Part shown: positions 28,437 to 52,695 of the stretch, in pieces | How positions within the stretch are numbered: position 1 is the stretch's first letter | Layout of the letters: each line of letters begins with the position of its first letter | Source of the DNA: Streptomyces sp. NBC_01260 | GTDB taxonomy: Bacteria; Actinomycetota; Actinomycetes; Streptomycetales; Streptomycetaceae | NCBI RefSeq assembly: GCF_036226405.1 | Contig: NZ_CP108464.1 | Span: forward strand, 8,308,001 to 8,372,000 | DNA: 64,000 nucleotides | Direction of reading: 5' to 3' | Notes under the pieces: generated by a model | Databases searched by the model: none | What the model saw: only the letters and a program-made list of their open reading frames with translations | What the model was told of the DNA's origin: nothing | Program-made: the position numbers and the translations under genes

Positions 28437-29063
28437 TCAGGCCTCGTCCCAATCGACGACCGTGTCGAGGTCGCTCTGGAATTCGGTGGGGAGTGCGGGC
28501 CAGTTGTCGGAGATTTCGGTGGGGCCGACGTCGACTGTGTCGTTGGTGATGTTGTAGCGGAGGTAGCGGTCGGCCTTGAAGAAGTAGGCGTTTCCGTCTC
28601 CCCAGTTGATGGCTGTGTCGAGGTCGCTCTGGAATTCGGTGGGGAGTGCGGGCCAGTTGTCGGAGATTTCGGTGGGGCCGACGTCGACTGTGTCGTTGGT
28701 GATGTTGTAGCGGAGGTAGCGGTCGGCCTTGAAGAAGTAGGCGTTTCCGTCTCCCCAGTTGATGGCTGTGTCGAGGTCGCTCTGGAATTCGGTGGGGAGT
28801 GCGGGCCAGTTGTCGGAGATCTCGGTGGGGCCGACGTCGACTGTGTCGTTGGTGATGTTGTAGCGGAGGCAGCGGTCGGCCTTGAAGAAGTAGGCGTTTC
28901 CGTCTCCCCAGTTGATGGCTGTGTCGAGGTCGCTCTGGAATTCGGTGGGGAGTGCGGGCCAGTTGTCGGAGATCTCCGTGGGATCGACGTCGACTGTGTC
29001 GTTGGTGATGTTGTAGCGGAGGTAGCGATCGCCTTTGAAGAAATAGGCAGCTCGGTCACTCAT
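28437..29063 (-). CDS. Four-blade hemopexin-repeat protein (208 aa)
   Basis: The whole 208-residue protein is one hemopexin-like propeller: four units of 51 residues with the pattern AINWGDGNAYFFKADRYLRY, then NITNDTVDVGPTEISDNWPA and LPTEFQSDLDT. Only a few positions differ between units (for example Arg-Cys instead of Arg-Tyr in blade 2, and the changed first and last half-units). It lacks a signal peptide. The gene is first of the leftward set ending at 18060 and is probably transcribed from the region above 29063. The near-perfect internal symmetry makes it look like a ring-shaped ligand-binding or multivalent protein. Ligand unknown. Confidence 0.8.
   Translation of the reverse strand: MSDRAAYFFKGDRYLRYNITNDTVDVDPTEISDNWPALPTEFQSDLDTAINWGDGNAYFFKADRCLRYNITNDTVDVGPTEISDNWPALPTEFQSDLDTAINWGDGNAYFFKADRYLRYNITNDTVDVGPTEISDNWPALPTEFQSDLDTAINWGDGNAYFFKADRYLRYNITNDTVDVGPTEISDNWPALPTEFQSDLDTVVDWDEA
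28462..29060. repeat. 153-bp tandem repeats encoding hemopexin blades
   Basis: Units starting at 28462, 28615, 28768 and 28921 are spaced exactly 153 bases and differ at very few bases. The identity includes synonymous positions, so the array was homogenised recently. It lies inside a coding frame and is not a CRISPR array. Confidence 0.9.
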
Positions 29064-30012: not shown

Positions 30013-30080
30013 TTGTCCGCGGACAAACGAGGGTTGTCCGCACCTCGGCTGGGCTTTTGTGCCGACCGCTTTACGGACAA
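30013..30080 (+). promoter_or_regulatory. Array of TTGTCCG half-sites before the peptide gene
   Basis: A perfect 14-base palindrome TTGTCCGCGGACAA lies at 30013-30026. A second direct half-site TTGTCCG follows at 30034, two helical turns from the first, and an inverted half-site CGGACAA is at 30074-30080. This looks like a cooperative binding region for a dimeric regulator controlling the gene at 30149. The regulator is unknown. Confidence 0.5.
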
Positions 30081-30148: not shown

Positions 30149-30322
30149 ATGGCGAACTCACTCAACCCCGAGGACATTACGGTCATCAGGCCCGAGGGCC
30201 TCGAACTCGCGCGGCACGACATCAGCAGGGGGAACCACGACGACAACGACACCAACGATTCCGGCAAGAGGGACGTGTTCAACCAGTACATCGACAACAT
30301 CTACGTTGACGACGAGGATTAA
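30149..30322 (+). CDS. Acidic 57-aa peptide, candidate RiPP precursor
   Basis: The ATG at 30149 begins MANSLNPEDITVIRPEGLEL, followed by ARHDISRGNHDDNDTNDSGK and a C-terminal RDVFNQYIDNIYVDDED. The first half is leader-like (short hydrophobic-acidic helix); the second is rich in Asp and Asn with two tyrosines at the end. Before the mobile-element insertions the gene would have stood about 52 bases ahead of a Cupin_4-type oxygenase gene, followed by an ABC exporter. That order is typical of ribosomally made, post-translationally modified peptides: asparagine/aspartate hydroxylation would be expected. The present stop TAA is made by the MITE, but removing the MITE and the adjacent ISAzo13 copy restores TAG at the same place. 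No precursor family recognised. Confidence 0.55.
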   Translation: MANSLNPEDITVIRPEGLELARHDISRGNHDDNDTNDSGKRDVFNQYIDNIYVDDED

Positions 30323-30483
30323 GGGCTGTCCCGCAATTCCCGGCGGGCGCGCGACGACAGTTACGGCACCTCGCCGCGTTGTCGGAACGTCCACATACAT
30401 CCAGTATGCGGACGCCCCTCCGCCTTGCGATGCACCGCATCTGACGCCGCGCGCTGATCCGCCAGGAATTGCGGGACAGCCCT
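30322..30483. mobile_element. 162-bp MITE, copy 1
   Basis: Ends AGGGCTGTCCCGCAATTCC and its inverted copy, flanked by TA on both sides (30320-30321 and 30484-30485). The interior has no gene and contains a further hairpin around GTCCACATAC/GTATGCGGAC. A second copy of equal length lies at 47631. The ends resemble those of the IS5-like element at 49494, so it is probably mobilised in trans. Confidence 0.8.
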
Positions 30484-30485
30484 TA

Positions 30486-32182
30486 GGGCTTGCAGATCAT
30501 TAACACGGTGTCTTGATCTTGATGCTGGTGTCGCCGGTCAGTGCGAGGACCCTGGCTTGGAGGACTGTGAGGGACGCGGGTGGGGTCTTCGCGGGCGGGA
30601 TAGTGATGCCCTGGGCCTCGAGCAGTCTTCTGTTCTTGAGGAGAGTGCGGTGCATGGCCGTGCGGCTGCTGGCGAACAGTACGGCGAGTGGTTCCGCGGC
30701 CAGGGCGACCCGCAGGTGGAGCACGGTGGCCAGGACCTGTTCAGGGAAGGTAAGTCGGGGTGGGCGACCTCGCTGAGTATCCCCGTCGGGAGCCAACATT
30801 GTCGTGAGGTTGTCCAGTTGCTGGCGGGGCATCCCGGTCAGGGAAGGATCGGTCAGTAGGGCCTGGTCCCACTGTGTGTCAGCGGCCTGCGGGGCTCGTG
30901 CCGCCGGGATGGCAGGGCGTGTCTGGGGGTGCAGTGCATAGTTCCAGTCGGCGTGGAAGGCATGCCGGGTCAGCGGCAGGGCAGCCATCTCTGCGTCGCC
31001 GATCTTCACCCCGATGGGATAGCTGTTGGTGTCAAGCGCGGCTTTCACGCGCAGTCCGGTGCGGGTGGTGGTCGCTGCGATGCTGTTCACGATGACTTCG
31101 TGGCTGGTCAGCGGGCGGCCGCGCCAGTTCATGGTGATGTGCGAGAAGAGCCGGTGCTCGATCTTGTTCCACTTTGACGTGCCCGGCGGTAGGTGGCACA
31201 CGGTGATGGTCAGTCCCGTTTCGGCGGCGAGCCGTGCGAGTTCGAGTTTCCAGGCCCGGGTGCGGTAACCGTTCGAGCCGCCCGCGTCGGCGGTGACGAG
31301 CAGTCGCGTCGCTTGCGGGTAGGCGGCCCGACCCTGGCCGCACCACCAGCGGCGGATCGATTCCACTGCGAATGCGGCGGTGTCGTGATCGGTGCCCACG
31401 TTGACCCAGCCGGTGTTCGCCGCGAGGTCGTAGATCCCGTACGGGACGGCCTTGCCCAGCCGGGGGTCGGCGAAGTCATGGACGTTCACCGGCGCCGGAT
31501 CAGCCGCAGGCCGCCACTGGAGACCGTTGTTCTTGAACTCGCCGACGAGTTCCTTCTTCTTGGTGTCCACGCTGATCACCGGCTGGCCAGCGTCCCGGTG
31601 ATCACGGGCCTGCTCGTTGAGATAGCGGAACTGGGCATCTCGGTCGGGATGTTGGCTTCCCTCGATGGTCTTGGCGTTGGCCTGCAGACTGAAGCCTTCC
31701 TCTCGCAGCAGGTCCGCGACGGTGTCCGCACTGACTTTGTGTCCGGTTCGGGCGAGTTCCCGCGCCAGAGTGCGGGTCGACTTCACCGTCCACCGCAGCG
31801 GCGACATCGGATCGCCTCGCTCGTCTGGCTCGACAAGCGTCAGGAGAGCCGGCCGCAGCCCCGGATCGAGATCTGCGACCCTCTTGCGGCCTCCGCCCGG
31901 CCGCCGCACTCTCCCCAGAGGCTCCTCGCCGGCCTCCAACTCGGACACGCCCTTGCGGACCGTGGTCTCACTCATCGAGGCCGCCCGCGCGACGGCCCGA
32001 ACGCCACCGTGTCCCAGAGCACGGGCCTCTGCGGCCATCAGCAGCCGTCGTTGCCGCTCATCCAGATGAGGGAACAACACCTCGAACTTCATGGTGAGTT
32101 GGGCACAGGCCTCTTCCAGGATGCGCATACCACATCAACGAGCCAAGGGACGGGAAGCAACACCTTGATGATCTGCAAGCCC
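30486..32182 (-). mobile_element. ISAzo13-family element, copy A
   Basis: A 1,697-bp element with terminal inverted repeats GGGCTTGCAGATCAT and a TTA duplication (30483-30485; 32183-32185). It is inserted exactly at the right edge of MITE copy 1, separating the peptide gene from the oxygenase gene. Confidence 0.88.
30500..32128 (-). CDS. ISAzo13-family transposase (copy A)
   Basis: A 542-residue DDE transposase. Residues 20-75 form an HTH region (ERQRRLLMAAEARALGHGGV, ASMSETTVRKGVSELEAG). The catalytic core has the first aspartate in VISVDTKKKELVGEF, the second in LLVTADAGGSNGYRTRAWK, and the glutamate in SKWNKIEHRLFSHITMNWRG. This matches the ISAzo13/Rhodopirellula-type group. The predicted protein is identical to those of the copies at 45986, 47849 and 51009. 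All four are intact, so the element is recently active. Confidence 0.92.
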   Translation of the reverse strand: MRILEEACAQLTMKFEVLFPHLDERQRRLLMAAEARALGHGGVRAVARAASMSETTVRKGVSELEAGEEPLGRVRRPGGGRKRVADLDPGLRPALLTLVEPDERGDPMSPLRWTVKSTRTLARELARTGHKVSADTVADLLREEGFSLQANAKTIEGSQHPDRDAQFRYLNEQARDHRDAGQPVISVDTKKKELVGEFKNNGLQWRPAADPAPVNVHDFADPRLGKAVPYGIYDLAANTGWVNVGTDHDTAAFAVESIRRWWCGQGRAAYPQATRLLVTADAGGSNGYRTRAWKLELARLAAETGLTITVCHLPPGTSKWNKIEHRLFSHITMNWRGRPLTSHEVIVNSIAATTTRTGLRVKAALDTNSYPIGVKIGDAEMAALPLTRHAFHADWNYALHPQTRPAIPAARAPQAADTQWDQALLTDPSLTGMPRQQLDNLTTMLAPDGDTQRGRPPRLTFPEQVLATVLHLRVALAAEPLAVLFASSRTAMHRTLLKNRRLLEAQGITIPPAKTPPASLTVLQARVLALTGDTSIKIKTPC

Positions 32183-32237
32183 TTAGGCCTTCCCCCTTCG
32201 AGCTGTGCGCTCATTCAGCAAGGAGAGTCAGAAGCAG

Positions 32238-33496
32238 ATGACCATTCCTGTCGGCCGGCAAGAGGTCGGTCCCGGGCCTCGGCTCGTTCCGGGAACCGAG
32301 GAGCGAGTTCCTTTCGGTCTTTCTCGGATAATTCACCCGTTGGAAACGGAATCCTTTCGGGAAAAGTACTGGGAGAAGCAGGTTCTTTTGGTCCAACGCG
32401 AAGATCCCAGCTATTTCTCGGACCTTTTGACGCTGGACGACGTGGACCTGTTGCTCTTCTCCTCGGGCGTGAATCTCGATGGCATACGGGTCCTGACCGA
32501 GGGCAAGGAGATGCCGGTCTCCGAGCTGGAGCACCTGAGCGGACAGAACGGCCGGGTCACGGTCCTCGAAACGCTCTACCAGCTCTACCGGACGGGATCC
32601 ACGATTGCGCTGAACGCCCTGGAGCCGCGCTGGGAGCCGCTGTCCCGTCTGTCCGCCGAACTCAGCGCGGAGACCAGTGCGCGCGTGCAGACGAATGTGT
32701 ATCTCACTCCGGGCGGTGGCGCCCAGGGACTCAGCCCGCACTACGACACTCACGACGTCTGCGTTCTGCAGGTGCACGGGGTGAAACGCTGGAGCCTCTA
32801 CGGAACGGCGCACGAGCTGCCTCTCCGTGATCAGCCCTTCGACCACTCGAAGGTCTTCGAGCGTGAGGTGGAGCAAGAAATAGACCTGAAGCCGGGTGAT
32901 GTGCTCTATCTCCCGAGGGGAACCGTCCACGCGGCGACCTCGACGGACTCGGCATCGGTCCACATCACCGTGGGATTTCGTCCGCTTCTGTGGAACGCGG
33001 TGATCCAGGAGGCCGTCAACGCGGTTCTCGGCGACGACGTGCGGTTCCGCACCGGCCGATGGGATTCGCCAATGACGCGCAAGCGCAGAAGGAGACCGAG
33101 GAGACCCTGACGGATCTTCTCGCGTCGCTGGCCTCCAGGCTGTCTCCGACGTCGATGACCGCCAGGGCGGTGAAACGTGCGGTGTCCTTGGCAGCGCCAC
33201 GGCTGCGGCACCACTTGACCGACCTGGAAGGCGTCGCGTCCATCGGGCTCGACACGCCGGTGCGACTCCAACCCGGTGTTCGGTGGCGTATCGAGGCGAA
33301 ACCCGAGGGAATCGAACTCCGGTTCCACAACAAGACGGTCGCGTTCCCCGTCCACGTGTCGGACGAGGTCCGGTACGTGGCCAAGAGAGACGAGGCGTCG
33401 TTCTCGCCGCGGTCGATTCCGGGCCTGTTGGACGAGCCTGGTCGGCTGGTGCTCGTCCAGTCACTCGTACGGGAAGGATTTCTGACTCTGAGCTGA
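32238..33496 (+). pseudogene. Cupin_4/JmjC-like oxygenase with one apparent frameshift
   Basis: From ATG 32238 (MTIPVGRQEVGPGPRLVPGT) the frame encodes a Cupin_4-type 2-oxoglutarate/Fe(II) oxygenase: IIHPLETESFREKYWEKQVL, the iron-binding HYDTHDVCVLQVHGVKRW (H-x-D) and GDVLYLPRGTVHAA (distal His), in the manner of bacterial ribosomal oxygenases. Near 33045-33060 the protein-like sequence moves one frame back and continues PMGFANDAQAQKETEETL and a C-terminal winged-helix-like region to 33496, matching the expected end of the family. The shift equals a one-base deletion; it may be decay or an assembly indel. A protein ending at 33110 would still hold the jelly roll. The position between peptide and exporter suggests it hydroxylates the peptide (inference). 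Confidence 0.68.
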
Positions 33497-33599
33497 CCTG
33501 CGGTGCCAGCAGCAAGTGATCACGCCGGACCGGTGGCCTCGTCGGACGCAGCGCCGACGGGGCCACCGGACGTCCGGCAGTCCGGAGGGGGAGACGCGC

Positions 33600-35372
33600 T
33601 TGACCGCCGAGCTGAAGGGTCCGCAGCGGGTGGGGTTACTCAGGGTGCTGAGGCTCTTCCTGCCGTACCGTGGACGCCTCGCCGTGCTGATACTCCTGAT
33701 CGTGGGGGCGTCCCTGGTGTCGATGGCTCTACCCTTCCTGCTGCGCGAGATCGTGGATGTGGCCCTGCCACGGGCACGCACCGGTCTGCTCACCGCTCTG
33801 TCAGCCGGGATGGCCGGAGTCGTGGTACTGAGCACCGGGCTCGGCGTACTCCAGTCGTACCTGACCGTGGTCCTGGGACAGCGGGTGATGCAGGACTTGC
33901 GTATCGGCGTCTACAACCATCTCCAACGAATGTCGCCGGCGTTTTTCACGACCGCTCGCACGGGCGAGATCCAGTCCCGGATCTCCAACGATATCGGAGG
34001 TATTCAGGCGACGATCACGAGCACCGCCACGGTGGTCGTCGGCAGCGTCACCACGGTTCTGGCCAGCCTGGTCGCGATGGTCGCACTGGACCCGGAACTC
34101 ACCGTTCTCTCTCTCGCCATACTTCCGCTGTTCGTATGGATCAGCCGCAAGGTCGGGGCCGAACGACGCGGGATAGTCATGGAGTACCAGCGCAAACTGG
34201 CTGTGACGTCAGCCCTGGTGGAGGAGTCGCTGTCGGTGAGCGGCTTCCTCCTCGGCCGGACGATGGGCCGGACCAGTACGTTGAACGCCGAGTTCGCCGC
34301 GGACTCCCGGGCCCTGACCGACCTCGCGGTCCGGTCGACGATGGTGGGCCGGTGGAGGCAGTCGACGATTGCGATCATCATGGGGACGATGCCCGTCATC
34401 ATCTACTGGGCGGCGGGAGTCATCGGTCATCAGAGCCAGGACCCGGTCTCCATCGGCACACTCATCGCCTTCACATCGCTTCAGCAGGGCCTGTTCGGCC
34501 CCGCGGTCTCGCTCCTGCAGGTGGGCATCTCCATCCAGAGTTCCATGGCGCTGTTCGACCGGGTCTTCGAGTACCTCGACCTTCCCGTGGGCGTCCCCGA
34601 ACCGGCCGATCCGAAGCCGCTCCCTCACCCGAAGGGCAGGGTCGAACTGCGGGGAGTGCACTTCCACTACCCCGGATCCACGACAGGGCTGTCAGGGATC
34701 GACGTGGACATCGCCCCCGGTGAACACCTCGCGGTCGTGGGAACGACTGGAGCAGGGAAGACGACCCTGGGATACCTGATCACGCGGCTGTGCGACCCGA
34801 CCAGCGGCACGGTCACCGTCGACGGGGTCGACGTCCGGGACCTCGGCTTCGAGACCCTCGCGGCCACGGTGGGCCTGGTATCACAGGACACCTACCTGTT
34901 CCACACCACCATCGCCGACAACCTTCGTTTCGCGAAGGCGGGCGCGACGGACGGAGAGCTGGTCGCCGCGGCCAAAGCGGCCCACATCCACGACCTCATC
35001 AGCAGCCTTCCCGAGGGGTACCGGACGATCGTCGGCGAACGGGGGTACCGATTCTCCGGCGGGGAGAAGCAGCGCCTCGCCGTCGCCAGGACAGTGCTGC
35101 GTGACCCACCGGTCCTCGTCCTGGACGAAGCCACCAGCGCGCTCGATGTCGACACCGAGCGACACGTCCAACGCGCGTTGGCGGAGATGTCCGGCGGACG
35201 CACCACGATCACCATCACCCACCGCCTCTCCACGGTGGTGAACGCCGACCGGATCATCGTGCTGGAGCGCGGACGCATCGTCGAGCACGGCTCTCACACC
35301 GATCTCCTGGCACACTCGGGCCGCTACGCCGCGCTGCTCCGGCCGGACCACCGGGAGCGGCCCCGGGTGTGA
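33600..35372 (+). CDS. ABC exporter, fused membrane and ATPase domains
   Basis: A 590-residue half-transporter. The first 310 residues carry six membrane helices (LAVLILLIVGASLVSMALPF; GLLTALSAGMAGVVVLSTGL and others), the rest a complete nucleotide-binding domain: Walker A VGTTGAGKTT near residue 380, Q-loop GLVSQDTYLF, signature FSGGEKQRLAVART, Walker B PVLVLDEATSALD and H-loop ITHRLST. It would act as a homodimer to expel a peptide or lipophilic compound. No C39 peptidase domain is fused. TTG 33600 is preferred because GGAGGGGGAG lies upstream and the family N terminus begins near here; an ATG at 33516 adds an unlikely Arg-rich extension. It follows the oxygenase on the same strand. Confidence 0.88.
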   Translation: MTAELKGPQRVGLLRVLRLFLPYRGRLAVLILLIVGASLVSMALPFLLREIVDVALPRARTGLLTALSAGMAGVVVLSTGLGVLQSYLTVVLGQRVMQDLRIGVYNHLQRMSPAFFTTARTGEIQSRISNDIGGIQATITSTATVVVGSVTTVLASLVAMVALDPELTVLSLAILPLFVWISRKVGAERRGIVMEYQRKLAVTSALVEESLSVSGFLLGRTMGRTSTLNAEFAADSRALTDLAVRSTMVGRWRQSTIAIIMGTMPVIIYWAAGVIGHQSQDPVSIGTLIAFTSLQQGLFGPAVSLLQVGISIQSSMALFDRVFEYLDLPVGVPEPADPKPLPHPKGRVELRGVHFHYPGSTTGLSGIDVDIAPGEHLAVVGTTGAGKTTLGYLITRLCDPTSGTVTVDGVDVRDLGFETLAATVGLVSQDTYLFHTTIADNLRFAKAGATDGELVAAAKAAHIHDLISSLPEGYRTIVGERGYRFSGGEKQRLAVARTVLRDPPVLVLDEATSALDVDTERHVQRALAEMSGGRTTITITHRLSTVVNADRIIVLERGRIVEHGSHTDLLAHSGRYAALLRPDHRERPRV

Positions 35373-35451: not shown

Positions 35452-37493
35452 TCACTCCGCGACCACGAGTGTTCGGACACGTCCCCCGATACGCAGCCAG
35501 TCCGTCCCGTCCCATTCCCGGACCGCCGCGCGATCGCGGTCCAACCGGTAGAGATGGTCCCCGCGGGTCCCGTACGCGGCTCCGGCATCGCCGACGCGCG
35601 ACCAAGCGCCCGCCCGATAGCGCCAAAGCCCGCCGTCTCCGTAATTCGTGACGTACAGGTCCGAGAGACCGGCGAAGAGTTCGCCTGCCGGCCCGCCGAT
35701 CGGGCTCCAGACGCCTGCCTTGCCGCTCCAGCGCATCACCGCGCTGCGTTCGGGGTTGAGCCCGTACAGATGGTCGCCGCTCACGGCGAAGTCGGCGCCG
35801 GCCGTTCCGGCGCAGAACCAGACGCCGTCCTTCCCCCCGTACGCGAAGATCCGGCCGTCCACGGGATCGGTCGCGAACAGCCCCGCCCTGCCGCCGTACA
35901 GCCTTCCCGCCGGACCGCCGATCCGCGTCCAGGTTCCACGGGCCCGGTTCCACCGGTGGACGGCGTTGCGGTCCGCGGCCAGCCGGTACAGCTGCCTGCC
36001 GCTCATCGCGAAAGCGACTGCGCGCGCGCTGACCGCTGTCCAGTCCCCGGGCACACCGGTGTACCCGGGCAATTCGCCCGTCTCCGGGTCGGTGGCGAAG
36101 ACGCCGGCCGGGCCCGCGTAAAGATCCTTGGCGGGACCGCCGATTTTCACCCACGCGGCATCCGCCCCGCTCCACTGCACGATCGCACGGCCGTCCGCCG
36201 CCACGGCATAGACGCCGCTGCCCGACGGCTTCGGGATCTCGGCGGGCAGCGGTGCCGTGGACGACGGCACCGCCTCGGACGCGAACCGGCTCGGCACAGG
36301 CGCGGACGGGTGTGAGGGAGCGCCGGCAGAGGGCGCCGTTCCCGGCGGTAATCGGCTCGATGTCGCCACGGGGGGCCGCAGCGGGGAGCCGGTGGCGTGC
36401 TTCTGCGGGGCCATCTCCGGTATGCGGCCGGACCGGAAGGGGGCCGCGGATTCGGCGCGCGGAGCGGACGGCATCGGGTCCAGCGACGTGGCCGCCGCTC
36501 CGAGGACCAAGACCACGCACACCATGAACAGGACGCGCCGCTGCCATCCCGGGTACAACGGCGCACGAGCGAATACGCGTCGCAGTGCGACGGGCGAACG
36601 GCTGCGTCCGCCGAACGCGTTGTCCGCCCGGCTCACCACGCGTCCGGAGACGACCTTCGCCTCCCCGGCCGCGATCATTCCGGCCCTGGTACGAAGTTGG
36701 GGCAGGTCCGCACGCCGGACCTCCACATTGGCACCGACCGGAATGAGAGGCGCTTCAAGGTCTCGTGTCGCTGGCAGATACAGATCTCGCAGGACGAGCT
36801 CCGCTCCGGGCGGGATACCGCTCGCTTCGTCCTGCGCGTCCGGCTGCCGGTCGTCGCACAGTTCCCCGGCTGCCGGGGACGGAAGGACGTCCCTCTTCTC
36901 CCGGGCGACGGCATGTTCTTGGGACGGCTGTACGAGGTCGTCCTCCGCCGCACCCGGCCGGGACTGTGCCGAAGGTCCGGGCTCCGGCCCCGTGGACGGA
37001 GCCCAGCCCACCGCCGTCACGCCGCCCGCCCTTCGGAGGGCGTCGTCCAACTCGCTCTGCAGCCGTGCCGTCACCCCCAGCAGACTGCGCACCGACCTCG
37101 CGGATTCGGCCAGGCGCGCCTCGGTGAGCCGCTTGGCCTCCCGCATCGGCTCGAGCCATTCGCCGCTCGCCGAAACCTCCTTCGCGCCTGTCCCTTGCCC
37201 TCTTCCGCCGCGCAGGCAGCGGCGTGCAGCCGCCTGGCCCGGGCAAGCAATTCAGCGCGGCCTCGGTCGTCGCGGACCCGGCTGAACGCCACCCGTTCCA
37301 GCAGCTCCAGCGGAGCGATCTTCGCCCCGGAGCGGTAGTCGCTCCAGCTGGCTCTGCCGGCCCCGTAGCTCTTGGCCAGGTCGCGGACCGTACGTCCTTG
37401 TGTGATGTCCCGCAGGAAGACGGCCAGCGCGTTCGCCTCGGCCGTCTCCCTTCTTGGCTCCTCTTGTCGGCGTCCCGCCTTGCCCATCTCCAA
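35452..37493 (-). pseudogene. HTH-membrane-propeller protein, split by a frameshift
   Basis: The first frame (37493 downward) has a helix-turn-helix (EANALAVFLRDITQGRTVRD, LAKSYGAGRASWSDYRSG) and runs to KGQA near 37188. A second frame continues without loss as KEVSASGEWLEPMREAKRLT, a coiled coil, a Pro/Gly-rich linker, one membrane helix (RRVLFMVCVVLVLGAAATSL), and a C-terminal series of about six short propeller-like units with W-x-x-I-G-G-P-A-x-x-L-Y and YRLDRDRAAVREW patterns. The coherent join after a one-base shift at about 37185 suggests a single gene of about 680 codons with an indel. The architecture suggests a DNA-binding cytoplasmic domain linked through the membrane to an external sensor. 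It is convergent with the ABC exporter. Confidence 0.6.
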
Positions 37494-45927: not shown

Positions 45928-45931
45928 CTAA

Positions 45932-47628
45932 GGGCTTGCAGATCATCAAGGTGTTGCTTCCCGTCCCTTGGCTCGTTGATGTGGTATGCGCATCCTGGAA
46001 GAGGCCTGTGCCCAACTCACCATGAAGTTCGAGGTGTTGTTCCCTCATCTGGATGAGCGGCAACGACGGCTGCTGATGGCCGCAGAGGCCCGTGCTCTGG
46101 GACACGGTGGCGTTCGGGCCGTCGCGCGGGCGGCCTCGATGAGTGAGACCACGGTCCGCAAGGGCGTGTCCGAGTTGGAGGCCGGCGAGGAGCCTCTGGG
46201 GAGAGTGCGGCGGCCGGGCGGAGGCCGCAAGAGGGTCGCAGATCTCGATCCGGGGCTGCGGCCGGCTCTCCTGACGCTTGTCGAGCCAGACGAGCGAGGC
46301 GATCCGATGTCGCCGCTGCGGTGGACGGTGAAGTCGACCCGCACTCTGGCGCGGGAACTCGCCCGAACCGGACACAAAGTCAGTGCGGACACCGTCGCGG
46401 ACCTGCTGCGAGAGGAAGGCTTCAGTCTGCAGGCCAACGCCAAGACCATCGAGGGAAGCCAACATCCCGACCGAGATGCCCAGTTCCGCTATCTCAACGA
46501 GCAGGCCCGTGATCACCGGGACGCTGGCCAGCCGGTGATCAGCGTGGACACCAAGAAGAAGGAACTCGTCGGCGAGTTCAAGAACAACGGTCTCCAGTGG
46601 CGGCCTGCGGCTGATCCGGCGCCGGTGAACGTCCATGACTTCGCCGACCCCCGGCTGGGCAAGGCCGTCCCGTACGGGATCTACGACCTCGCGGCGAACA
46701 CCGGCTGGGTCAACGTGGGCACCGATCACGACACCGCCGCATTCGCAGTGGAATCGATCCGCCGCTGGTGGTGCGGCCAGGGTCGGGCCGCCTACCCGCA
46801 AGCGACGCGACTGCTCGTCACCGCCGACGCGGGCGGCTCGAACGGTTACCGCACCCGGGCCTGGAAACTCGAACTCGCACGGCTCGCCGCCGAAACGGGA
46901 CTGACCATCACCGTGTGCCACCTACCGCCGGGCACGTCAAAGTGGAACAAGATCGAGCACCGGCTCTTCTCGCACATCACCATGAACTGGCGCGGCCGCC
47001 CGCTGACCAGCCACGAAGTCATCGTGAACAGCATCGCAGCGACCACCACCCGCACCGGACTGCGCGTGAAAGCCGCGCTTGACACCAACAGCTATCCCAT
47101 CGGGGTGAAGATCGGCGACGCAGAGATGGCTGCCCTGCCGCTGACCCGGCATGCCTTCCACGCCGACTGGAACTATGCACTGCACCCCCAGACACGCCCT
47201 GCCATCCCGGCGGCACGAGCCCCGCAGGCCGCTGACACACAGTGGGACCAGGCCCTACTGACCGATCCTTCCCTGACCGGGATGCCCCGCCAGCAACTGG
47301 ACAACCTCACGACAATGTTGGCTCCCGACGGGGATACTCAGCGAGGTCGCCCACCCCGACTTACCTTCCCTGAACAGGTCCTGGCCACCGTGCTCCACCT
47401 GCGGGTCGCCCTGGCCGCGGAACCACTCGCCGTACTGTTCGCCAGCAGCCGCACGGCCATGCACCGCACTCTCCTCAAGAACAGAAGACTGCTCGAGGCC
47501 CAGGGCATCACTATCCCGCCCGCGAAGACCCCACCCGCGTCCCTCACAGTCCTCCAAGCCAGGGTCCTCGCACTGACCGGCGACACCAGCATCAAGATCA
47601 AGACACCGTGTTAATGATCTGCAAGCCC
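45932..47628 (+). mobile_element. ISAzo13-family element, copy B
   Basis: 1,697 bp with ends GGGCTTGCAG and a TAA duplication (45929-45931; 47629-47631). It lies between the IS701-like left copy and MITE copy 2, inside the shared TAA. Confidence 0.88.
45986..47614 (+). CDS. ISAzo13-family transposase (copy B)
   Basis: Same 542-residue protein as copy A, without visible differences, with DDE residues in VISVDTKKK, VTADAGGSNG and NKIEHRLFS. Opposite orientation to copies A and D. Confidence 0.92.
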   Translation: MRILEEACAQLTMKFEVLFPHLDERQRRLLMAAEARALGHGGVRAVARAASMSETTVRKGVSELEAGEEPLGRVRRPGGGRKRVADLDPGLRPALLTLVEPDERGDPMSPLRWTVKSTRTLARELARTGHKVSADTVADLLREEGFSLQANAKTIEGSQHPDRDAQFRYLNEQARDHRDAGQPVISVDTKKKELVGEFKNNGLQWRPAADPAPVNVHDFADPRLGKAVPYGIYDLAANTGWVNVGTDHDTAAFAVESIRRWWCGQGRAAYPQATRLLVTADAGGSNGYRTRAWKLELARLAAETGLTITVCHLPPGTSKWNKIEHRLFSHITMNWRGRPLTSHEVIVNSIAATTTRTGLRVKAALDTNSYPIGVKIGDAEMAALPLTRHAFHADWNYALHPQTRPAIPAARAPQAADTQWDQALLTDPSLTGMPRQQLDNLTTMLAPDGDTQRGRPPRLTFPEQVLATVLHLRVALAAEPLAVLFASSRTAMHRTLLKNRRLLEAQGITIPPAKTPPASLTVLQARVLALTGDTSIKIKTPC

Positions 47629-47630
47629 TA

Positions 47631-47792
47631 AGGGCTGTCCCGCAATTCCGGATCAGCGCGCGACGACCGCTACGGCACCTCGCCGCGTTGTCGGAACGTC
47701 CACATACATCCAGTATGCGGACGCCCCTCCGCCTTGCGATGCACCGCATCTGACGCCGCGCGCTGATCCGCCAGGAATTGCGGGACAGCCCT
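47631..47792. mobile_element. 162-bp MITE, copy 2
   Basis: Same length and ends as copy 1, flanked by TA (47629-47630; 47793-47794). In this copy the arms pair further: GGATCAGCGCGCG follows the left end and CGCGCGCTGATCC precedes the right end, so the element can fold into a long hairpin. Copy 1 differs at some of these bases. Confidence 0.82.
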
Positions 47793-47794
47793 TA

Positions 47795-49491
47795 GGGCTT
47801 GCAGATCATCAAGGTGTTGCTTCCCGTCCCTTGGCTCGTTGATGTGGTATGCGCATCCTGGAAGAGGCCTGTGCCCAACTCACCATGAAGTTCGAGGTGT
47901 TGTTCCCTCATCTGGATGAGCGGCAACGACGGCTGCTGATGGCCGCAGAGGCCCGTGCTCTGGGACACGGTGGCGTTCGGGCCGTCGCGCGGGCGGCCTC
48001 GATGAGTGAGACCACGGTCCGCAAGGGCGTGTCCGAGTTGGAGGCCGGCGAGGAGCCTCTGGGGAGAGTGCGGCGGCCGGGCGGAGGCCGCAAGAGGGTC
48101 GCAGATCTCGATCCGGGGCTGCGGCCGGCTCTCCTGACGCTTGTCGAGCCAGACGAGCGAGGCGATCCGATGTCGCCGCTGCGGTGGACGGTGAAGTCGA
48201 CCCGCACTCTGGCGCGGGAACTCGCCCGAACCGGACACAAAGTCAGTGCGGACACCGTCGCGGACCTGCTGCGAGAGGAAGGCTTCAGTCTGCAGGCCAA
48301 CGCCAAGACCATCGAGGGAAGCCAACATCCCGACCGAGATGCCCAGTTCCGCTATCTCAACGAGCAGGCCCGTGATCACCGGGACGCTGGCCAGCCGGTG
48401 ATCAGCGTGGACACCAAGAAGAAGGAACTCGTCGGCGAGTTCAAGAACAACGGTCTCCAGTGGCGGCCTGCGGCTGATCCGGCGCCGGTGAACGTCCATG
48501 ACTTCGCCGACCCCCGGCTGGGCAAGGCCGTCCCGTACGGGATCTACGACCTCGCGGCGAACACCGGCTGGGTCAACGTGGGCACCGATCACGACACCGC
48601 CGCATTCGCAGTGGAATCGATCCGCCGCTGGTGGTGCGGCCAGGGTCGGGCCGCCTACCCGCAAGCGACGCGACTGCTCGTCACCGCCGACGCGGGCGGC
48701 TCGAACGGTTACCGCACCCGGGCCTGGAAACTCGAACTCGCACGGCTCGCCGCCGAAACGGGACTGACCATCACCGTGTGCCACCTACCGCCGGGCACGT
48801 CAAAGTGGAACAAGATCGAGCACCGGCTCTTCTCGCACATCACCATGAACTGGCGCGGCCGCCCGCTGACCAGCCACGAAGTCATCGTGAACAGCATCGC
48901 AGCGACCACCACCCGCACCGGACTGCGCGTGAAAGCCGCGCTTGACACCAACAGCTATCCCATCGGGGTGAAGATCGGCGACGCAGAGATGGCTGCCCTG
49001 CCGCTGACCCGGCATGCCTTCCACGCCGACTGGAACTATGCACTGCACCCCCAGACACGCCCTGCCATCCCGGCGGCACGAGCCCCGCAGGCCGCTGACA
49101 CACAGTGGGACCAGGCCCTACTGACCGATCCTTCCCTGACCGGGATGCCCCGCCAGCAACTGGACAACCTCACGACAATGTTGGCTCCCGACGGGGATAC
49201 TCAGCGAGGTCGCCCACCCCGACTTACCTTCCCTGAACAGGTCCTGGCCACCGTGCTCCACCTGCGGGTCGCCCTGGCCGCGGAACCACTCGCCGTACTG
49301 TTCGCCAGCAGCCGCACGGCCATGCACCGCACTCTCCTCAAGAACAGAAGACTGCTCGAGGCCCAGGGCATCACTATCCCGCCCGCGAAGACCCCACCCG
49401 CGTCCCTCACAGTCCTCCAAGCCAGGGTCCTCGCACTGACCGGCGACACCAGCATCAAGATCAAGACACCGTGTTAATGATCTGCAAGCCC
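47795..49491 (+). mobile_element. ISAzo13-family element, copy C
   Basis: 1,697 bp, same ends as the others. Its flanks differ: TTA on the left (MITE 2 border) and TAA on the right (border of the IS5-like element), unlike copies A, B and D, which have matching 3-bp flanks. It may have inserted at TTAA between the two elements or arisen through recombination. Confidence 0.88.
47849..49477 (+). CDS. ISAzo13-family transposase (copy C)
   Basis: Identical 542-residue protein to copies A, B and D, and in direct orientation to B. B and C, separated only by the 162-bp MITE, could recombine and delete the interval. Confidence 0.92.
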   Translation: MRILEEACAQLTMKFEVLFPHLDERQRRLLMAAEARALGHGGVRAVARAASMSETTVRKGVSELEAGEEPLGRVRRPGGGRKRVADLDPGLRPALLTLVEPDERGDPMSPLRWTVKSTRTLARELARTGHKVSADTVADLLREEGFSLQANAKTIEGSQHPDRDAQFRYLNEQARDHRDAGQPVISVDTKKKELVGEFKNNGLQWRPAADPAPVNVHDFADPRLGKAVPYGIYDLAANTGWVNVGTDHDTAAFAVESIRRWWCGQGRAAYPQATRLLVTADAGGSNGYRTRAWKLELARLAAETGLTITVCHLPPGTSKWNKIEHRLFSHITMNWRGRPLTSHEVIVNSIAATTTRTGLRVKAALDTNSYPIGVKIGDAEMAALPLTRHAFHADWNYALHPQTRPAIPAARAPQAADTQWDQALLTDPSLTGMPRQQLDNLTTMLAPDGDTQRGRPPRLTFPEQVLATVLHLRVALAAEPLAVLFASSRTAMHRTLLKNRRLLEAQGITIPPAKTPPASLTVLQARVLALTGDTSIKIKTPC

Positions 49492-49524
49492 TAAGGGCCG
49501 TCCCGTAAGTGATCTTGCTCTGCG

Positions 49525-50303
49525 ATGATCTTGACCGTGTCAGGTGTGATCACGGCCTCCGAGCCGTCCTGGATAGCCCCGTTTACCGGGCTGCGCCCGC
49601 CCGTCTTCAGCAAGTTGGTGACCGCGCTGCGTCGTGAGGGTGCCGACTCCCCGGGCCGGGGCCGGCCGTGGAAGCTGTCGCTGGAGGACCGGGTGCTGCT
49701 GGTCGCCGCGTACTGGCGAACGAACTTGACGATGCGGCAACTGGCCCCGCTGTTCGGGGTGTCGAAGTCGGCCGCAGACCGAGTGATCGGCGACATCGGC
49801 CCGAGGCTCGCGCTGCATCCCCGCCAGCGGTTCGCCAAGGACGCGGTGCTGATCGTGGACGGCACCCTGGTGCCCACCCGGGACCACAAGGTCGCCGAGC
49901 AGTCGAAGAACTACCGCTACTCCACCAACCACCAGGTAGTCATCGACGCCGACACCCGCCTGGTCGTGGTGGTCGGCCTGCCGCTGCCGGGCAATCGCAA
50001 CGACTGCCGGGCCTGGTCGGAGTCCGGCGCCAAGGCCGCCGTCGGCAACACGATTACCATCGCCGATGGCGGCTACCCAGGAACCGGGCTCCTGATGCCG
50101 CACCGCCGCCGCAAGGAGAGGATCTCCCCGACTGGAAACAGGCCCACAACAAGTCCCACAAGCAGGTCCGCGCCCGCGTCGAGCATGCCTTCGCCCGTAT
50201 GAAGACCTGGAAGATCCTGCGCGACTGCCGCCTGAGAGGCGACGGCGTGCGCCACGCAATGCACGGCGTCGCCCGCCTACACAACCTCGCCCTCACGGGA
50301 TAA
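49525..50303 (+). CDS. IS5-family (DDE_4) transposase, frameshifted
   Basis: Starts around 49525-49537 (VSGVITASEPSWIAPFTGLR) with an HTH (LTMRQLAPLFGVSKSAADRV), the first aspartate in VLIVDGTLVPTRDH, the second in TITIADGGYPGTGLL. At about 50115 (HRRRK) the sense moves one frame back to GEDLPDWKQAHNKSHKQVRA, RVEHAFARMKTWKILRDCRL with the glutamate, ending in HGVARLHNLALTG. The shift corresponds to one missing G in AAGGAGAGG. It may be decay, an indel in the assembly, or programmed frameshifting as in related elements. Confidence 0.75.
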
Positions 50304-50372
50304 CCCCCGCCGCATGCGGACCTGAGAGGGTCCAGGTAAGACAGCTCCCCACCTCGCAGTCTCGGAGGAGAC

Positions 50373-50804
50373 TCAGTCGAGGCAGAACTCGTTGCCCTCG
50401 ATGTCCTGCATCGTGATGCACGACTCGTTGACGCCATCGGCGCGCTGCGTCAGCACGTGCTTCGCGCCGAGCGCCATCAGCCGTGCGCATTCAGCCTCGA
50501 GTGTGGCCAGGCGCTCGTCACCCACGAGCCCGGCGCCGGCCCGCACACAGAGATGCACCCGGTTCTTGACGACCTTGCCTTCGGGAACTCGCTGGAAGAG
50601 CAGGCGCGGGGCCACACCCGAGGGATCAGTACACGCGAAGTAGATCTCGTCCTCGGGCGGCAGCGAGCGGTGGTACTCCTCCCACGTGGCAAAACCCTCC
50701 GGGACCGCCGGTACGACGTACCCCAGCACCTCACACCAGAAGGCGGCGAGGCGCGCAGGTTCAGCGCAGTCGAAGGTCACTTGAAACTGCTTGATCGCTG
50801 ACAT
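50373..50804 (-). CDS. VOC-family (glyoxalase/bleomycin-resistance fold) protein
   Basis: A 143-residue protein with two beta-alpha-beta-beta-beta modules: IKQFQVTFDCAEPARLAAFW, CEVLGYVV, EIYFACTDPSGVAPRLLFQR and VKNRVHLCVRAGAGL in the second half, ending MQDIEGNEFCLD with the usual Glu metal ligand near the C terminus; a histidine ligand is likely in NRVHLCV. The subgroup (Glyoxalase_6-like) includes many uncharacterised small-molecule enzymes and a few antibiotic-binding proteins. It is the only non-transposase gene inside the 44.3-54.4 kb element pile and seems to be a passenger of the IS5-like element. Substrate unknown. Confidence 0.85.
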   Translation of the reverse strand: MSAIKQFQVTFDCAEPARLAAFWCEVLGYVVPAVPEGFATWEEYHRSLPPEDEIYFACTDPSGVAPRLLFQRVPEGKVVKNRVHLCVRAGAGLVGDERLATLEAECARLMALGAKHVLTQRADGVNESCITMQDIEGNEFCLD

Positions 50805-50994
50805 CGGCGCACCCTACCAAGGGGGCTCTGCTGCACTTTCCCCAGGTGGATCCCCATGCCGTCGAGATGTCGACCCAACCCCGCCGAAACCTGGCCCGGA
50901 TCGGACATCAGGTAATCAAACCGAACAGGTCACGCGAACAGCGCAACCCTGGCGCGTAGCTGCGTGCCGAAGACCAGTTACGGGACAGCCCTTA

Positions 50995-52691
50995 GGGCTT
51001 GCAGATCATTAACACGGTGTCTTGATCTTGATGCTGGTGTCGCCGGTCAGTGCGAGGACCCTGGCTTGGAGGACTGTGAGGGACGCGGGTGGGGTCTTCG
51101 CGGGCGGGATAGTGATGCCCTGGGCCTCGAGCAGTCTTCTGTTCTTGAGGAGAGTGCGGTGCATGGCCGTGCGGCTGCTGGCGAACAGTACGGCGAGTGG
51201 TTCCGCGGCCAGGGCGACCCGCAGGTGGAGCACGGTGGCCAGGACCTGTTCAGGGAAGGTAAGTCGGGGTGGGCGACCTCGCTGAGTATCCCCGTCGGGA
51301 GCCAACATTGTCGTGAGGTTGTCCAGTTGCTGGCGGGGCATCCCGGTCAGGGAAGGATCGGTCAGTAGGGCCTGGTCCCACTGTGTGTCAGCGGCCTGCG
51401 GGGCTCGTGCCGCCGGGATGGCAGGGCGTGTCTGGGGGTGCAGTGCATAGTTCCAGTCGGCGTGGAAGGCATGCCGGGTCAGCGGCAGGGCAGCCATCTC
51501 TGCGTCGCCGATCTTCACCCCGATGGGATAGCTGTTGGTGTCAAGCGCGGCTTTCACGCGCAGTCCGGTGCGGGTGGTGGTCGCTGCGATGCTGTTCACG
51601 ATGACTTCGTGGCTGGTCAGCGGGCGGCCGCGCCAGTTCATGGTGATGTGCGAGAAGAGCCGGTGCTCGATCTTGTTCCACTTTGACGTGCCCGGCGGTA
51701 GGTGGCACACGGTGATGGTCAGTCCCGTTTCGGCGGCGAGCCGTGCGAGTTCGAGTTTCCAGGCCCGGGTGCGGTAACCGTTCGAGCCGCCCGCGTCGGC
51801 GGTGACGAGCAGTCGCGTCGCTTGCGGGTAGGCGGCCCGACCCTGGCCGCACCACCAGCGGCGGATCGATTCCACTGCGAATGCGGCGGTGTCGTGATCG
51901 GTGCCCACGTTGACCCAGCCGGTGTTCGCCGCGAGGTCGTAGATCCCGTACGGGACGGCCTTGCCCAGCCGGGGGTCGGCGAAGTCATGGACGTTCACCG
52001 GCGCCGGATCAGCCGCAGGCCGCCACTGGAGACCGTTGTTCTTGAACTCGCCGACGAGTTCCTTCTTCTTGGTGTCCACGCTGATCACCGGCTGGCCAGC
52101 GTCCCGGTGATCACGGGCCTGCTCGTTGAGATAGCGGAACTGGGCATCTCGGTCGGGATGTTGGCTTCCCTCGATGGTCTTGGCGTTGGCCTGCAGACTG
52201 AAGCCTTCCTCTCGCAGCAGGTCCGCGACGGTGTCCGCACTGACTTTGTGTCCGGTTCGGGCGAGTTCCCGCGCCAGAGTGCGGGTCGACTTCACCGTCC
52301 ACCGCAGCGGCGACATCGGATCGCCTCGCTCGTCTGGCTCGACAAGCGTCAGGAGAGCCGGCCGCAGCCCCGGATCGAGATCTGCGACCCTCTTGCGGCC
52401 TCCGCCCGGCCGCCGCACTCTCCCCAGAGGCTCCTCGCCGGCCTCCAACTCGGACACGCCCTTGCGGACCGTGGTCTCACTCATCGAGGCCGCCCGCGCG
52501 ACGGCCCGAACGCCACCGTGTCCCAGAGCACGGGCCTCTGCGGCCATCAGCAGCCGTCGTTGCCGCTCATCCAGATGAGGGAACAACACCTCGAACTTCA
52601 TGGTGAGTTGGGCACAGGCCTCTTCCAGGATGCGCATACCACATCAACGAGCCAAGGGACGGGAAGCAACACCTTGATGATCTGCAAGCCC
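50995..52691 (-). mobile_element. ISAzo13-family element, copy D
   Basis: 1,697 bp with a TTA duplication (50992-50994; 52692-52694). It sits between the right end of the IS5-like element and the right IS701-like copy. Confidence 0.88.
51009..52637 (-). CDS. ISAzo13-family transposase (copy D)
   Basis: The fourth apparently identical 542-residue copy, inverted relative to B and C. B or C with D could invert the central segment that carries the VOC gene. Confidence 0.92.
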   Translation of the reverse strand: MRILEEACAQLTMKFEVLFPHLDERQRRLLMAAEARALGHGGVRAVARAASMSETTVRKGVSELEAGEEPLGRVRRPGGGRKRVADLDPGLRPALLTLVEPDERGDPMSPLRWTVKSTRTLARELARTGHKVSADTVADLLREEGFSLQANAKTIEGSQHPDRDAQFRYLNEQARDHRDAGQPVISVDTKKKELVGEFKNNGLQWRPAADPAPVNVHDFADPRLGKAVPYGIYDLAANTGWVNVGTDHDTAAFAVESIRRWWCGQGRAAYPQATRLLVTADAGGSNGYRTRAWKLELARLAAETGLTITVCHLPPGTSKWNKIEHRLFSHITMNWRGRPLTSHEVIVNSIAATTTRTGLRVKAALDTNSYPIGVKIGDAEMAALPLTRHAFHADWNYALHPQTRPAIPAARAPQAADTQWDQALLTDPSLTGMPRQQLDNLTTMLAPDGDTQRGRPPRLTFPEQVLATVLHLRVALAAEPLAVLFASSRTAMHRTLLKNRRLLEAQGITIPPAKTPPASLTVLQARVLALTGDTSIKIKTPC

Positions 52692-52695
52692 TTAG

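Follow-up and report, generated by a model that had tools for sequence, protein, structure and literature searches.

A peptide, iron oxygenase and exporter gene set, conserved and probably RiPP-like in Streptomyces and relatives, looks broken in Streptomyces sp. NBC_01260

In a stretch of 64,000 nucleotides from Streptomyces sp. NBC_01260 (contig NZ_CP108464.1, positions 8,308,001 to 8,372,000; hereafter the window), genes for a short acidic peptide, a putative iron oxygenase of the JmjC_2/Cupin_4 family (PF08007) and an ATP-binding cassette (ABC) exporter follow one another on the plus strand (Table 1). These genes represent a conserved set in Streptomyces and its relatives that probably resembles pathways for ribosomally synthesized and post-translationally modified peptides (RiPPs), although mobile DNA and a frameshift seem to have broken it in this genome. 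The original prediction, made from the letters of the window alone, had described a 57-codon peptide reading frame, a single coding strand and a fused exporter, all of which our analysis bears out; the exporter carries both PF00664 and PF00005. Our reading of the whole locus, to which we assign a probability of about 0.62, is that it is a damaged copy of a RiPP-like pathway in which a leader-binding JmjC_2 enzyme would oxidize an Asp-rich core and the ABC protein would export the product.

An intact counterpart was found in Streptomyces sp. TSRI0281 (locus L003), the sole related locus confirmed by one contig search. All three genes are intact there, and the oxygenase gene, which runs uninterrupted for 420 codons, begins 50 bases after the peptide stop. 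The window peptide is identical to that of L003 at 52 of 57 residues, and the exporters are 94% identical. In the window, the peptide and oxygenase genes are separated by two insertions, already suspected in the original prediction and here assigned to a miniature inverted-repeat transposable element (MITE)-like element and an ISAzo13-family insertion sequence, with ends placed by eye; the gap of about 52 bases that had been expected after their removal is consistent with the spacing in L003. The uninterrupted arrangement in L003 supports the view that the insertions separated genes that were once adjacent. The MITE seems to have inserted at the peptide stop codon, which is TAG in L003 and TAA in the window. 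The ISAzo13 transposase is matched by NF033519 (E-value 1.8e-181) and PF07592 (E-value 9.1e-147). Three more copies of the ISAzo13 element, 99.88-100% identical, lie within positions 45928-52695 of the window, and a second MITE-like copy at 47629-47801 is 96% identical across 173 bases; these additional copies point to recent transposition in the region.

The N-terminal part of the window oxygenase scores 95.1 bits against PF08007 (cut-off 22) and is 93% identical to residues 1-273 of the L003 protein. The Cupin_4/JmjC-like gene with an H-x-D...H motif that had been predicted is thus confirmed in its family and in its motif, which reads HYD...H in the window and aligns with that of NO66, but the gene is not whole: no intact oxygenase was found in the window, where the reading frame closes at 33110, cutting off the C-terminal domain. 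Comparison with L003 gives a ratio of nonsynonymous to synonymous substitution rates (dN/dS) of 0.16 for the N-terminal part and 0.22 for the C-terminal part, and these low values indicate that the break is either recent or an error of sequencing or assembly. The frameshift makes it probable that the window copy is dead, and together with the insertion it has probably left the locus defunct.

To place the peptide in a wider context we used it alone as a query against 392 genomes of the genus. This gave one clear relative genome (G038, E-value 2.3e-7), with two tandem peptides 5' of its oxygenase, and weak matches at E ≤ 1 in 76 of the 392 genomes, among which G286 (E-value 0.006; locus L063) is a true member of the family; within its own genome the window peptide is the only strong match. 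A search of 394 genomes belonging to the class matched oxygenases of this type in 112 (E ≤ 1e-25), with peptides sought in part of these. The oxygenase search and retrieval of flanking sequence, together with L003, yielded 60 loci with long flanks, and a tree of 59 oxygenases places the window type in a single clade of 22 rows (support 99/99). Peptides were called by a leader motif (SLxPEDITV-like, roughly S-L-x-P-[ED]-[DE]-I-x-V), tuned on these same loci, and at least five Asp residues. By this rule 25 peptides were recovered from 19 of the 22 loci of the window's clade; reversing the sequences of these 22 loci gave none, and the 38 loci outside the clade (473 kb) likewise contained none. 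The prospect raised in the original prediction, that the small reading frame would lack conservation beside homologous oxygenase and exporter genes, is therefore not what we found, and its core idea of a RiPP-like peptide that is the substrate of the oxygenase survives the comparison, with modification and export as its predicted consequences.

The same comparison bears on the reading that the linkage is accidental, an acidic open reading frame (ORF) that happens to lie beside a housekeeping-like Cupin_4 gene. Asp-containing ORFs are common in high-GC DNA, and among 332 control genes, called in the same fetched stretches with a simple ORF caller of our own and not taken from curated annotation, 80 are preceded by an ORF with at least six Asp plus Asn in 30 residues; the figure for the oxygenases is 48 of 60, a weaker contrast than that at a threshold of at least eight (27 of 60 oxygenases against 19 of 332 controls). 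The stricter count, the shared leader motif without a match in the controls and the low ratios of nonsynonymous to synonymous polymorphism (pN/pS) in the clade II peptide genes all argue against accident, which we consider extremely improbable. Chance linkage was accordingly rejected on the distribution of the leader motif and on the pN/pS values. The latter, uncorrected, range from 0.14 to 0.58 in seven overlapping clade II pairs, which favors a coding role, a point that the original prediction had left to synonymous and nonsynonymous patterns, and these genes look to be under purifying selection; the peptide genes of L152 and L154 give an uncorrected pN/pS of 0.39. In the window, the GC contents at the first, second and third positions of the 57 codons are 0.55, 0.28 and 0.88.

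Two features associated with RiPP precursors are apparent in the family: a short ribosomally encoded precursor lies beside the gene for a modifying enzyme, and a conserved leader is followed by a more variable core. In a 15-row peptide alignment (A3), M1, L5, D9, I10 and D32 are invariant, the last of these within the core. The original prediction had placed the modified region in the C-terminal part, but the conserved Asp-rich block is located mid-peptide and the C-terminus has just a short DDxD. When 394 genomes of the family were searched with a model built from these 15 rows, seven of them gave a total of 11 strong matches, none more than about 7 kb away from an oxygenase of the clade, and there was one weak match (E-value 5.8e-5) in G880, a genome without such an oxygenase at E ≤ 1e-40.

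The arrangement of the genes is relevant to the role of the peptide. In L065-L067, which belong to clade II, the oxygenase ATG lies 4 bases past the peptide stop, and 17 of the 18 loci of clade III have a TTG, in frame with the oxygenase, that overlaps the stop codon of the peptide gene. Such close packing speaks against the peptide being a signal or regulator of the cluster while the oxygenase acts on some other substrate. That view, which we regard as very improbable, finds some support in the several different peptides carried by five loci (L063, L064, L151 and L153 two each, L155 three), in the placement of one L155 peptide on the opposite strand, and in a two-component system near the Streptomyces clavuligerus locus, of which further clade II loci have probable homologues. 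Not all peptides are directly upstream of the oxygenase: the peptides of L151, two of the three in L155 and the second one in L063 are downstream of peptidase or exporter genes, and the L152 peptide precedes a LanB gene.

With the peptide taken as precursor, having a conserved N-terminal leader and an Asp-rich core, the proposed pathway would proceed as follows. The JmjC_2 enzyme, a putative Fe(II)/2-oxoglutarate (2OG) oxygenase, would bind the leader, perhaps through its C-terminal domain, and oxidize residues of the core; the ABC protein would then export the product. Residues H168, D170 and H231 (L003 numbering) are invariant in 17 proteins, align with the HxD...H of NO66 and are predicted to bind iron. 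The nearest solved structures to the oxygenase are NO66 and MINA53, and this kinship together with the HxD...H motif makes Fe(II)/2OG hydroxylation our first guess. The likeliest chemistry would be β-hydroxylation of Asp in D-x-D-x-x-D. The clade II repeats (e.g. ISDNDPTDPV) contain no His, and Arg occurs in one L143 repeat only, plus one in an L144 linker; the absence of His and of nearly all Arg makes Asp a likelier target than the Arg or His of the known Cupin_4 enzymes. One S. clavuligerus repeat has Pro in place of Asn (DPDPFD), so that the Asp of D-x-D-x-x-D is what the repeats share. Departures from the motif are seen in some clade I members (e.g. DNNNND in L145), and peptides of the L152/L154 type are without it. 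The oxygenase might instead act on the peptide by another oxidation, such as a cross-link or a backbone change. Fe/2OG enzymes of RiPP pathways are capable of more than hydroxylation, and Cys or Trp is present in some precursors (L153, L158); the nearest solved relatives are nevertheless named hydroxylases, and the JmjC enzymes described in RiPPs hydroxylate Orn, which makes such an alternative unlikely in our estimate.

The C-terminal domain of the oxygenase, a winged-helix or RiPP recognition element (RRE)-like part, may serve as the recognition element that binds the leader. RRE-like domains fused to PF08007, with bacterial homologues in RiPP-like contexts, are reported in PMC12710340. The statement in the original prediction that no classical RiPP recognition domain is present may therefore need amending; the comparison with PqqD given below was weak.

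The best reading of the surrounding genes is that the JmjC enzyme is the main or only modifier of the pathway. Among the seven window proteins scanned, there was no LanB/LanC or LanM-type enzyme, no leader peptidase, and no match to a multinuclear non-heme iron-dependent oxidase (MNIO) or B12 radical SAM enzyme, the scan for the last two covering these seven proteins. The exporter has no C39 peptidase domain, PF00664 and PF00005 alone passing the Pfam cut-offs. The earlier impression that no peptidase is present thus holds for the proteins scanned and not for the family: S9 peptidase homologues occur in 8 of 60 loci, seven of them in the window's 22-locus clade (confirmed by Pfam for L158 and L065, the rest by homology), and L151 carries a pair of M16 peptidases, in an order that L155 shares as judged by similar gene starts. 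Leader removal would fall to these S9 or M16 enzymes in some relatives, and here, if it took place at all, to an unlinked peptidase. Of the 60 loci, 19 encode a related ABC exporter, and every one of these belongs to the window's clade (19 of 22); L152 encodes a LanB lantibiotic dehydratase. The S. clavuligerus locus comprises a 48-residue peptide (WP_009999493.1), the cupin WP_009999494.1, an S9 peptidase, an ABC transporter and the two-component system. In L149 the genes beside the oxygenase encode a carbamoyltransferase and an ATP-grasp ligase of the RimK type, and neither a recognizable precursor nor such an exporter was seen.

A sister clade of 28 tree rows carries peptides of a different kind, with DGG repeats. 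A count of DGG was added to the analysis because the Asp plus Asn statistic separates these peptides poorly; 29 of the 60 oxygenases have at least three DGG upstream, compared with 2 of the 332 controls. Peptides are thus present in 48 of the 60 loci, 19 by leader motif and 29 by DGG count; other acidic ORFs occur in L159, L164 and L172, and no peptide was found in L146, L149, L156 or L157, L173-L177 of this set not having been read for peptides. A Suc_Fer-like (ferredoxin-like) homologue is encoded in 17 of 60 loci, with Pfam confirmation for one, and the fetched stretches of the sister clade hold no such exporter. These features lend some weight to another interpretation, in which the peptide, acidic and hydroxylated, would bind metal or calcium and act within or upon the cell that makes it, and would not be the precursor of a natural product; D-x-D-x-x-D presumably resembles metal-binding loops. 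The exporter, LanB and peptidases of the window's own clade fit better with a secreted, processed peptide, and we judge a cellular role of this kind improbable for the window. Across L068-L082, L160-L163, L165-L171 and L178-L180, from several actinobacterial families, DGG-repeat peptides lie 5' of the PF08007 enzyme, often with the Suc_Fer-like gene next. In L093 and L112, from the genomes of L164 and L172, peptides with DGTDGDSTDG-like repeats lie 5' of a further group of oxygenases that includes L173 in the tree.

Several observations weigh against the RiPP-like pathway that we favor. No such exporter is present in the fetched stretches of L147, L149 and L159; L149 has no recognizable peptide, L146 has just a leader-like stretch that overlaps the oxygenase start, and the acidic ORF of L159 is a different one, without the leader motif. 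The hits are partly circular, since these loci themselves furnished both the leader pattern and the model, with rows from all seven matched genomes; what is informative is consequently that the other 387 genomes gave no further strong match. Between the window and L003 the peptide genes differ by two synonymous and six nonsynonymous changes (dN/dS 0.73), too few to show selection. An hhalign comparison between 12 PqqD sequences and 56 of the C-terminal domains gave a weak probability of 31%, and the 21 domains of the exporter type alone gave 0.7%. A structure prediction for the L003 oxygenase from a three-row alignment had a mean predicted local distance difference test score (pLDDT) of 31 and was not used. 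Finally, we know of no modification or product for a class of this kind.

Table 1. Positions in the window of the features of the peptide, oxygenase and exporter locus.
Feature	Position	Strand	Remarks
Operator-like repeats	30013..30080		palindrome TTGTCCGCGGACAA at 30013-30026; half-sites at 30034 and 30070-30080
Precursor peptide (putative), 57 aa	30149..30322	+	leader NSLNPEDITV, core DDNDTNDSG, C-terminal DDED
MITE-like element	30322..30483		terminal inverted repeats AGGGCTGTCCCGCAATTCC; probable TA duplication
ISAzo13-family insertion sequence	30486..32182	-	probable TTA duplication; transposase 30500-32128 (-)
JmjC_2/Cupin_4 oxygenase, N-terminal catalytic part	32238..33110	+	PF08007, E-value 2.9e-27; ends early by frameshift
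Frameshift site	33050..33058	+	window 4 bases shorter than L003, near 33055
Oxygenase C-terminal (winged-helix or RRE-like) part	33059..33496	+	other frame; aligned in intact relatives
ABC exporter, fused membrane and ATPase domains	33516..35372	+	PF00664 and PF00005; true start uncertain

Upstream of the peptide gene, 79-136 bases 5' of its ATG, a palindrome and half-sites form a possible operator of some regulator. Among 185 loci searched, the exact palindrome is found only in L003 and in loci of the window's same site, and a 16-base form (TTGTCCGCGGACAAAC), with up to two mismatches, occurs in the genome at this site and one other. Two minus-strand genes were also noted in this part of the window. 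At 28437-29063 a 208-residue protein has four near-identical hemopexin-like repeats (PF00045, E-value 3.3e-41), to our knowledge unusual in bacteria, and at 35452-37146 a 564-residue protein has a weak tectonin-like match below the cut-off, with a similar protein after the exporter in L003. Related cupins were also seen in other settings. On plasmid p1 of Streptomyces sp. WAC00288 (L213, 1380-8820), YcaO and TfuA genes diverge from cupin, methyltransferase and carbamoyltransferase genes in a RiPP-like setting. Outside Actinomycetota, a plasmid of Rhizobium etli IE4803 (L212, 2230-6155) has a small ORF and radical SAM/SPASM, hypothetical and JmjC genes in a row, likewise RiPP-like, and the mobilizable 7.9-kb Escherichia coli plasmid pRHBSTW-00322_4 (L211, 6429-7322) encodes a cupin-like protein of weak similarity (30% identity across one third of the query); matches were also seen in several E. 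coli records of that size.

The closest solved structures, and YcfD, share the HxD...H and flanking residues with the oxygenases of this family. NO66, MINA53 and YcfD modify His or Arg of ribosomal proteins, whereas the neighbor here is a short peptide whose core is often without His and Arg. In biphenomycin biosynthesis, PMC12707348 and PMC12257519 describe the JmjC enzymes BipG/BpmG and the cupin-like PbsQ as hydroxylating Orn in RiPP precursors. The likeness lies in an Fe/2OG-type enzyme of a RiPP cluster that hydroxylates a precursor residue, and this precedent means that the involvement of JmjC enzymes in RiPP pathways is not in itself new. As described there, the biphenomycin enzyme has ornithine as its target and works alongside other tailoring enzymes (MNIO, arginase, B12 radical SAM), while here, on a comparison of descriptions, most loci show no modifier besides the JmjC enzyme and the cores are Asp-rich. 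The PF08007 JmjC proteins with RRE-like domains (PMC12710340) belong to the same Pfam family, and the passage concerned names neither a family of precursors nor an exporter, a target residue or a class from actinobacteria. Asp β-hydroxylation of a precursor peptide is known from PesHI and SmaO (PMC13060819, PMC13097080); in the passages concerned PesHI is not described as JmjC or cupin, and SmaO belongs to a graspetide cluster. A search of the open literature, with most subscription papers outside it, found no description of a class that combines JmjC enzymes, Asp-rich precursors and exporters.

Taken together, these data indicate that the gene set is real and more general than the window alone had shown, with a biochemistry that is predicted from sequence. 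A broader proposal, which we offer only tentatively, is that an unnamed and widespread class of actinobacterial peptides is modified mainly or only by a PF08007 JmjC enzyme with its own peptide-binding C-terminal domain, which would β-hydroxylate Asp in acidic cores, of an exported D-x-D-x-x-D type and a ferredoxin-linked DGG type, to give metal- or calcium-binding peptides. If the RiPP-like pathway is correct, its class would be recognizable by one enzyme family recorded merely as a cupin domain-containing protein, and its precursors would be short and poorly annotated. The loci supply testable pairs of enzyme and substrate, one of them in Streptomyces clavuligerus, and the JmjC_2 proteins of bacteria, whose most familiar activity is the hydroxylation of ribosomal proteins, would have a second large role.

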